Source: Thiorhodovibrio litoralis
GTDB taxonomy: Bacteria; Pseudomonadota; Gammaproteobacteria; Chromatiales; Chromatiaceae
DNA length: 64,000 nucleotides
NCBI RefSeq assembly: GCF_033954455.1
Contig: NZ_CP121473.1
Span: forward strand, 4,574,501 to 4,638,500
Direction of reading: 5' to 3'
Shown piece by piece: positions 3,607-64,000 of the stretch; within the stretch, counting starts at the first letter, position 1, and each line of letters starts with the position of its first letter. The position numbers and the translations under genes are program-made. The notes under the pieces are model-generated. The model worked only from the letters and a program-made list of their open reading frames with translations. It had not been told where the DNA came from and did not search any database.

Positions 3607-3636
3607 AAAAAAAAACAGCGGTAACCGCTGCTTTTT
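3607..3636. terminator. Bidirectional intrinsic terminator between the 93-aa gene and pufA3
   Basis: A perfect CAGCGG/CCGCTG hairpin with a three-base loop is flanked by nine A (3607-3615) and five T (3632-3636). On the - strand the hairpin is followed by nine T, an ideal terminator for the end of the puf operon 95 bases downstream of pufA3. On the + strand it ends the ligA-side transcript. Confidence 0.85.
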
Positions 3637-61883: not shown

Positions 61884-62232
61884 GCTTATGGTTTCCTTGG
61901 AATTCAGGCCGCCAGGGCGTTGAAGCCCCAGCCAACCAGGGTGAATGAGACCGCCAGCACCGAGGAACCGGAACGGAAGATGACAGGATAACGCCAAAGC
62001 CCGCCTTTATGGAGTAAATTGGCACCCACCCAGCCCTGACGCACGACTTACCAGACCAAGGCGCTGGACCAGGAATTTCGAGAAGATTTCGCGCCGAGTG
62101 GGGTGAAAACCGAACATTGGCGCCCGTGTGACGGAGCCTGCCGGAGAAAAAATCGCTGCCGCAGGACCTCTTGGCCATAGGGGGCCGCCGCCTGCGCTGT
62201 GAGCAAGCGGTAGACTCCTGGCGATATTGAGC
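61884..62232. other. 350-bp gap with no recognised gene
   Basis: No frame carries a recognised protein or a good start. The transposase stop lies at the right edge, so one end of the insertion element should be here, but I could not identify a terminal inverted repeat because the other end is outside the window. Confidence 0.5.
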
Positions 62233-63776
62233 TCAGAGCAAGCGTAATCGAAACGGTCGTTGCAGGCGCTGCTCCACCTCTTGGGGATCGAGCCAAGGGC
62301 CGGTGAGGGTATTGCGGATGAAGCCGATGGTGGCCTGCACCCCAAGCTGCACGAATAGCGCCGCGAGCGCCTTGGAGAAGCGTGCCAGGGTGTTGATCAG
62401 ATGCGCCAGACGCATCAGCAAATGATAGCCCTTCATCGCGTTCCACTGCTTGGCGAAGGCATGTTCGTAGCCGTAGCCCTGGTGCTTTTCGACCAAAAAC
62501 GCCCCTTCGATGCCCCAGCGGTAGCGCGCCCCGAGGTTGCAGCGGGTATGCACATTGAGCCGGCTGAGGGGGCGCGAGGAGAGCCAGACATGGCAGGCGT
62601 GCTTGGTGATGATCTCCGCAGTCTTGGGGTCCACCACCTGCCAGTGTTCGTGGCAACTCACCACATGGACCTCAAGGAACTTCTTGCCATTGGGTCCATA
62701 CTCGTAGCGAATCGCGTTGACCCACTGAAATTGCTGCTGGCGCTCGCCCCATGTCTGTTCGCAGCGATGCTCCGGGTGCTCGTGGGCCAAGCTGCGATAC
62801 TCTTCCCAGACAGTTGGCAGCGAGCCATCCTTAAGCACGATCATAAAATCCCAGTGGTAGGAACGACAGCGTTCCATGATCGGGCCGTTGGCATAGAGCC
62901 CATCGAGCAGCAGCATCACCGGCAGACGGGGAAAGGCGTTTTTGATGCGCTCGGCCAGACGGTGAAAGGCCTTGGTCTCGCAGTCCTGCTTGCGCTGCTC
63001 GCCCTGCTCTGGGGCAAACTCAAGGAACTCGCTCATCAACGGAATCACCATCCCGTTACGGAAGCACAGGCTCGCCTCCAGCACATAGACGTAGCACTGA
63101 TATTCCTGCTCCTCGTCGCTGTCGGGGTCCACCTTGGGACCGACACGGCGTTGGGATAAATGCTCATCCCACAGCACGGGAAAAGCGAGTTTCTGCGAGC
63201 CATCGATCCCGATGGGGTAACAGTTGTTGATCAGGTAACGCGAGAAGGCTTTGTTGCGGATCAGCCGCCGGACGAGCTCAAGATGCGCGTGGGCGATGGC
63301 GTTGACATCGATGCGCGCGAGCAGGCGAAACAGCGTATCGGCGTGAGGAAGGGCGTCGAGTTGCGGGAAGAGCAACCGCAGGTTGGCCTCGAACATCGGC
63401 CGGGTAAGCTCCCCATTGCTCGCGCGTCGTGAGCCATACTGAAACACAAACACCAGGATCCCATAGAGCATCAGGACGGTGAGTTTGTGTTTGACCTTCT
63501 TGGGGTGACGTGGATCGGGGATCTTGCCGAAGCGTTTGAGCAGGATCGGCAGCATCTGGCGCATGATCAAGATCAGTGTCGTCACCGCCTCGGTGCGCGC
63601 CGCGCGTTCCTCGGTGTTGTCGCGGAAAGGGCAGGTGCGATTGGACGGGGTAGCGCTCGGCGGCGGACTCAGTCCCGCTTCACGTTGCTGTTGGCGCAAG
63701 CGCTTGTGTTGGTCTTTTTTTTTCTCGCGTGCGCTTTGATCTCCTCGCGTCCCGGACGCCGGCTTGGCTTGCTCAT
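62233..63776 (-). CDS. IS4-like DDE transposase, apparently made by -1 frameshifting
   Basis: Frame 0 begins MSKPSRRPGREEIKAHARKKK from an ATG at 63776 that overlaps the upstream stop (ATGA). At A AAA AAG (63714-63720) a -1 shift joins it to the long frame DQHKRLRQQQREAGL..., giving 514 residues. The main frame has GIDGSQKLAFPVLWDEHL (first acidic residue), VMLLLDGLYANGPIM (second) and ARYRWGIEGAFLVEKHQGYGYEHAF (Y/R/E region), as in IS4-superfamily transposases. Without a shift frame 0 ends after 35 codons. A plain frameshift mutation remains possible. Confidence 0.78.
63714..63720 (-). promoter_or_regulatory. A AAA AAG slippery site in the transposase gene
   Basis: On the - strand a run of nine A followed by G contains the heptamer A AAA AAG in the correct frame for the codons started at 63776. 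This is the same heptamer used for -1 frameshifting in dnaX and several insertion elements. The shift direction needed to enter the transposase frame is also -1. Confidence 0.65.
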
Positions 63777-64000
63777 CGCTCGTTTTGACCTCGCAGTTGA
63801 TGGGAGCACAACAGGGTTCGAAACTCCGCCTGCAAGGACTTGGCAAACATCAGCTTGGGGCGGGTGTGGTAGGTTTTCCCCGGACGCACCAGGCCTCTGC
63901 CGCTGGTGCGTCCCAGCAGCGTCCAACCGGCGGCGCGGTAACAGCTGCCGCGAAAGCGCTCGGGGTCGACGAAGGTCTCCAGCAGCAGCGGGCGGTAGCC
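63773..64000 (-). CDS. DUF4338 (DruA-like) protein, C-terminal part (partial)
   Basis: Open at the right edge; 75 residues are visible, starting GYRPLLLETFVDPERFRGSCYRAAGWTLLGRTSGRG, the end of the DUF4338 domain also found in DruA of Druantia systems. It stops at 63773, inside the transposase start (ATGA). DUF4338 genes very often precede such transposases, so it is probably part of the insertion element rather than a defence system. Confidence 0.75.
   Translation of the reverse strand, partial: GYRPLLLETFVDPERFRGSCYRAAGWTLLGRTSGRGLVRPGKTYHTRPKLMFAKSLQAEFRTLLCSHQLRGQNER

Follow-up and report, generated by a model that had tools for sequence, protein, structure and literature searches.

A transposase gene split at a run of adenines in a DruA-carrying insertion sequence of Thiorhodovibrio litoralis is probably expressed by slippage

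An insertion sequence of Thiorhodovibrio litoralis carries a transposase gene whose two parts, in different reading frames, meet at a run of nine adenines (A9). The element lies at the end of a 64,000-nucleotide stretch of the genome (contig NZ_CP121473.1, positions 4,574,501 to 4,638,500; here called the window), and coordinates below are those of the window, counted from its first letter. Comparison with related elements indicates that the transposase is very probably made by programmed recoding. The mechanism we favor, and consider probable, is slippage of RNA polymerase in the A run, which would rescue the split gene and limit transposase output. The features on which the analysis is based are as follows.

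62022 to 62030, no strand: left copy of a 9-bp target-site duplication, GCACCCACC; the right copy is at 64838-64846, outside the window.
62031 to 64837, minus strand: insertion sequence of 2,807 bp, with 62031 to 64000 inside the window and the last 837 bp past its end; the boundaries are the same in three genomic copies that are 99% identical.
62031 to 62043, no strand: 13-bp terminal inverted repeat, CAGCCCTGACGCA; its partner, TGCGTCAGGGCTG, is at 64825-64837, outside the window.
62233 to 63714, minus strand: transposase frame reached through the shift; it has 493 codons and a stop and matches PF13808 (DDE_Tnp_1_assoc) and, weakly, PF01609.
63669 to 63776, minus strand: zero-frame open reading frame from the coupled ATG, 35 codons and then a stop; the transposase N-terminus is encoded by the first 21 of these codons.
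63714 to 63723, minus strand: slippage site A9-G, read from the sequence, with the heptamer A_AAA_AAG at 63720-63714.
63773 to 64000, minus strand: 3′ part of the upstream gene (in full, approximately 63773-64690) for a 305-amino-acid DruA-domain protein (PF14236; Pfam E value, 2.5e-28).

The DruA-domain gene is the first gene of the element and the DDE transposase gene is the second. The two are joined at an ATGA, in which the minus-strand ATG at 63776-63774 overlaps the TGA of the upstream gene at 63775-63773. The frame that begins at the coupled ATG reads MSKPSRRPGREEIKAHARKKKTNTSACANSNVKRD and ends at a stop at 63671-63669 after 35 residues. Nine As occupy 63723-63715 and are followed by a G at 63714, such that the heptamer A_AAA_AAG (63720-63714) is in phase with the coupled frame, and a −1 shift at the run leads into a frame that starts with GAC at 63714, ends at 62233, and gives a predicted fusion of 514 amino acids. 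A preliminary description of this DNA had proposed that the ATG is coupled to the upstream stop, that a slippery heptamer stands in the right frame and direction to enter the long transposase frame, and that the unshifted product has 35 residues, and each of these points was confirmed. The A9-G sequence is identical, GCGAGAAAAAAAAAG, in all three full genomic copies, each of which is out of frame. An unbroken reading in the transposase frame from an upstream TTG at 63846 was rejected, as the added stretch lies over part of the DruA gene, which uses a different frame, and holds the DruA stop in those relatives that need a +1 shift. Runs of nine As on either strand occur twice in the window, which is 62% GC, versus 0.10 expected from shuffled sequences. 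The one away from the element, at 3607-3615, falls within none of the listed open reading frames but directly after a small one. It adjoins a palindromic stretch, AGCGGTAACCGCT, and is possibly part of a terminator.

The 21 residues encoded ahead of the run were assigned to the transposase because a sister clade that lacks the A run encodes the same segment in one frame. Members of that clade (L060, L061, L025, and L063; roughly 57-60% identity, with six copies in the L060 genome) share the coupled ATG and open with MSKPCRRLSRAAIKEQRAHKKQQEQALRQQQR, one example reading MSKPCRRLSRAAIKEQRAHKKQQEQALRQQQRQDGL, in keeping with the earlier view that these residues are the N-terminus of the family. 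Within the A-run clade, MSxPSRRPGRExIKA is kept in the coupled frame and LRQQQREAGL is kept in the other frame right after the run. Moreover, differences between relatives were in third-position excess on both sides of the run, falling by codon position as 33/25/95 in the coupled frame before it and as 222/222/430 in the transposase frame after it, and the signal from the 51-nt upstream segment alone was suggestive at most (p 0.03-0.06 by column permutation). An AlphaFold model of an in-frame relative, with a mean pLDDT of 51 and too weak for a fold search, tentatively predicts a helix over residues 10-33 that would span the junction. The relatives that need +1 might instead read through the DruA stop, but this was rejected, as the reading beyond that stop is not conserved and the N-terminal motif is. 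We conclude from these alignments that the 21-residue N-terminus is part of the transposase.

The ends of the element were sharply defined by comparing its three full copies in the finished genome. A second copy is flanked by its own, different 9-bp target duplication, AAAAGCAGA, and thus fresh 9-bp duplications are found at two of the three copies, all of which are A9. The third (L011 3164-5970) has intact ends and no target duplication, for which recombination between copies may be the explanation. A remnant elsewhere in the genome (L004 1502-1735) encodes the C-terminal 80 residues of the transposase at 91-94% identity. Related elements of 2,807-2,818 bp have the same ends, and several are flanked by 9-bp duplications, among them a Halochromatium copy with a run of eight As (A8). 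The nearest named relatives are Chromatiaceae (Lamprobacter and Halochromatium). A search of viral contigs and phage records returned no match, and matches on plasmids were confined to 22-31% identity. The preliminary description had placed its feature at 62233-64000, a span that lies within the insertion sequence but covers only part of it, as the element extends from 62031 to 64837 and past the window end. With inverted ends, a target duplication, and a transposase split over two frames, the element belongs to the insertion sequences with recoded transposases. We conclude that it is a complete, autonomous insertion sequence with a two-frame transposase gene.

Six related lineages carry runs of seven, eight, or nine As at the junction, and none of the six is in frame at the run. 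The source genome (three copies) and the congener G002 have A9 and need a −1 shift. The Lamprobacter type, the Halochromatium type, and G494 have A8 and each need +1, as does a proteobacterial metagenome-assembled genome (Bpl MAG) with A7. Lineage G017 has A8 and needs −1, for which the heptamer would be A_AAA_AAC; its frame was set by homology. This copy (L040) is truncated where its contig ends and has a divergent N-terminus. Identical pairs (G465 and L049; G067 and L051) were counted once per pair. The chance that six lineages would all miss the frame was estimated at approximately 0.001 naively (1/3 each) and nearer 0.01-0.04 with shared descent. The set of lineages is small, and some of them are not independent, the A8 of Lamprobacter and Halochromatium being inherited from a common ancestor. 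In a tree, the −1 group and the A8 +1 group, the latter comprising close relatives that are ~80% identical and carry A8-C, are sisters with support of 99/99. Run length therefore appears, from these alignments, to have changed between lineages without ever landing in frame.

Comparison with other copies had been proposed earlier as the way to recognize a programmed shift, and it gave a divided answer: the break is kept at the run, and A9-G is present in three of three genomic copies, but run length and direction vary among relatives. Homologues with one continuous frame, which had been taken in advance as a sign of simple deletion or sequencing error, do exist, but all of them lack the A run, whereas every homologue with seven to nine As is out of frame. 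An error in sequencing or a plain deletion is unlikely and was rejected, as A9 is found in three copies and again in another species, and the remaining A-run relatives are broken as well. The 9-bp duplications at two A9 copies and at the A8 Halochromatium copy indicate that the out-of-frame form has been mobile recently in both the −1 and the +1 states, and the finished genome contains no in-frame copy able to supply transposase in trans. Separately, transposase copies of the congeners (G002, L021 1486-2999, L035, and L046; G001, L026/L037) have a further break in common, close to residue 403, which in L021 is an 11-bp alignment gap that brings in a stop. These copies look dead, and the A9-G site is intact in the G002 copies that were read.

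We favor polymerase slippage because neither the length of the run nor the direction of the shift is conserved among relatives, and gain or loss of As in the transcript would restore the frame in each lineage. Ribosomal frameshifting conserves direction and transcriptional realignment need not, and DDE_Tnp_1 transposases occur both as +1 and as −1 clusters (Antonov 2013, PMC3711429); direction is likewise not conserved among the A-run orthologues here. Insertion sequences use runs of A8-A10 for transcriptional slippage (Baranov 2005, PMC1088944), and IS1447 slips in both directions at ~16% each, with seven As sufficing (PMC6211511). The source genome encodes tRNA-Lys(TTT) and a separate tRNA-Lys(CTT), with a CUU anticodon, and possession of separate tRNAs for AAA and AAG has been linked to polymerase slippage in Thermus (Atkins review, PMC5009743). 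Under polymerase slippage, translation would restart at the ATG coupled to the DruA stop and would end after 35 codons on faithful A9 transcripts. On a minority of transcripts, slippage in the run would give A10 or A7 in place of A9, and ribosomes would run straight into the transposase frame to make a protein of ~514 amino acids. Confining the fusion to few transcripts would limit transposase production, and in the window copy the in-phase A_AAA_AAG might add some −1 ribosomal slippage. We infer that the two frames are expressed as one protein, that most of the slippage is by RNA polymerase, and that the arrangement serves to dose transposase.

The preliminary description instead invoked programmed −1 ribosomal frameshifting, in which two tRNA-Lys on A_AAA_AAG slip back one base into the transposase frame. 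Its premise that the two frames must join at the A run stands, but its specifically ribosomal −1 mechanism does not carry over to the A8-C and A7 relatives, which need +1; relatives ~80% identical to the window copy are thus beyond the reach of −1 shifting. The canonical heptamer is in phase in three of three genomic copies and in G002, and in E. coli A_AAA_AAG is the dnaX site and ranks among the most efficient heptamers (PMC5009743, PMC4066793). An in-phase X_XXY_YYZ heptamer was found in A9 copies only, however, and with four related lineages needing +1, neither −1 direction nor the heptamer is conserved among orthologues. Moreover, a hairpin search found downstream folds no better than those of shuffled sequences (z −1.1 to +0.5), a GGAG-like sequence 5′ of the run in the window copy is not kept in other copies, and the dedicated tRNA-Lys(CUU) of the host should keep a firmer hold on AAG (PMC5009743). 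We regard −1 ribosomal frameshifting as an unlikely explanation. Somewhat more doubtful is that the family switched mechanism, with A7-A8 relatives using polymerase slippage (+1) and the A9-G lineage having gained A_AAA_AAG, such that ribosomal −1 shifting takes over or adds to it; if true, the family would be a natural series for the transition from transcriptional to translational recoding. The gene could also be expressed with no recoding, from an internal GTG or ATG ~45-60 codons into the transposase frame, if the N-terminus were dispensable and the break a neutral indel. Such codons lie ahead of most of the conserved domain, and in a distant relative from the Bacillota (L052) the protein starts after the N-terminal region, but the stretch from the A run to these codons shows conservation of the transposase frame, both in the codon-position differences after the run and in the alignment, and the motif of the coupled N-terminus is kept across A-run lineages, making this reading very improbable. 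Least probable of all is on/off phase variation, in which DNA replication slippage would change the A count and only in-frame copies would express transposase. Runs of As are mutable in DNA too, and the run differs between lineages (7, 8, or 9), but no A-run lineage is in frame, and A9 is uniform across the three genomic copies, two of which have moved recently although the genome offers no in-frame copy. Polymerase slippage is thus the reading we retain.

The transposase matches PF13808 at 1.5e-12 and PF01609 just below the cutoff. PADLOC models gave no match, and of the components of a Druantia defense system, in which DruA occurs with the DruE helicase and partners, the DruA domain was the one identified within the element. 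Elsewhere in the same genome (L013/L014/L015), DruA-domain genes lie directly 5′ of transposases of two unrelated types. One is a Tn5-like transposase with DNA-binding and dimerization domains, apparently in ~20 copies, and the other is an IS66-type transposase that adjoins another DruA gene. In the source genome, insertion sequences thus appear commonly to carry DruA as a passenger. The literature searched yielded no description of a DruA/DUF4338 gene within insertion sequences, nor of the type of element reported here, in which recoding accompanies a DruA-domain gene.

Recoding at A runs is already known in insertion sequences, and the element is a newly described case. Annotation would label its transposase frameshifted or a pseudogene despite recent movement without an in-frame genomic copy. 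The family offers close +1 and −1 versions at one A run together with an in-frame sister clade, and its chief use may be as a comparison set for polymerase versus ribosome slippage, along with the caution it gives against pseudogene annotation.

Among known systems, the closest likeness is to slippage-dependent insertion sequences, namely, the Deinococcus and Nostoc elements of Baranov 2005 and IS1447 of the IS3 family, which likewise have two overlapping frames with 7-10 As at the junction, run lengths that vary between relatives, and a full transposase that requires fusion. Slippage was measured in those systems and is inferred here, and whereas in IS1447 the fused frames are OrfA and OrfB of an IS3 element, the upstream frame here is a tail of ~21 codons that issues from a stop-start overlap with the DruA gene. 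The DDE_Tnp_1 clusters of the GeneTack study (Antonov 2013) likewise are of the PF01609 class, have a poly-A site, and include both directions in one family; that study pooled many families, and the present element is one that carries DruA. E. coli dnaX and insertion sequences with −1 ribosomal frameshifting use the same in-phase A_AAA_AAG as the window copy, but unlike at dnaX-type sites, the heptamer here is not conserved in relatives, stimulators are not evident, and there is a second tRNA-Lys in the host. Finally, the element resembles the ISAs1 and IS1380 families in the DDE_Tnp_1_assoc domain and in a weak IS1380 profile match. Unlike those families, it scored 21 bits with the curated IS1380 model against a cutoff of 180, had no match to the ISAs1 model, and carries the extra DruA gene. 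It is also longer than typical members of either family.
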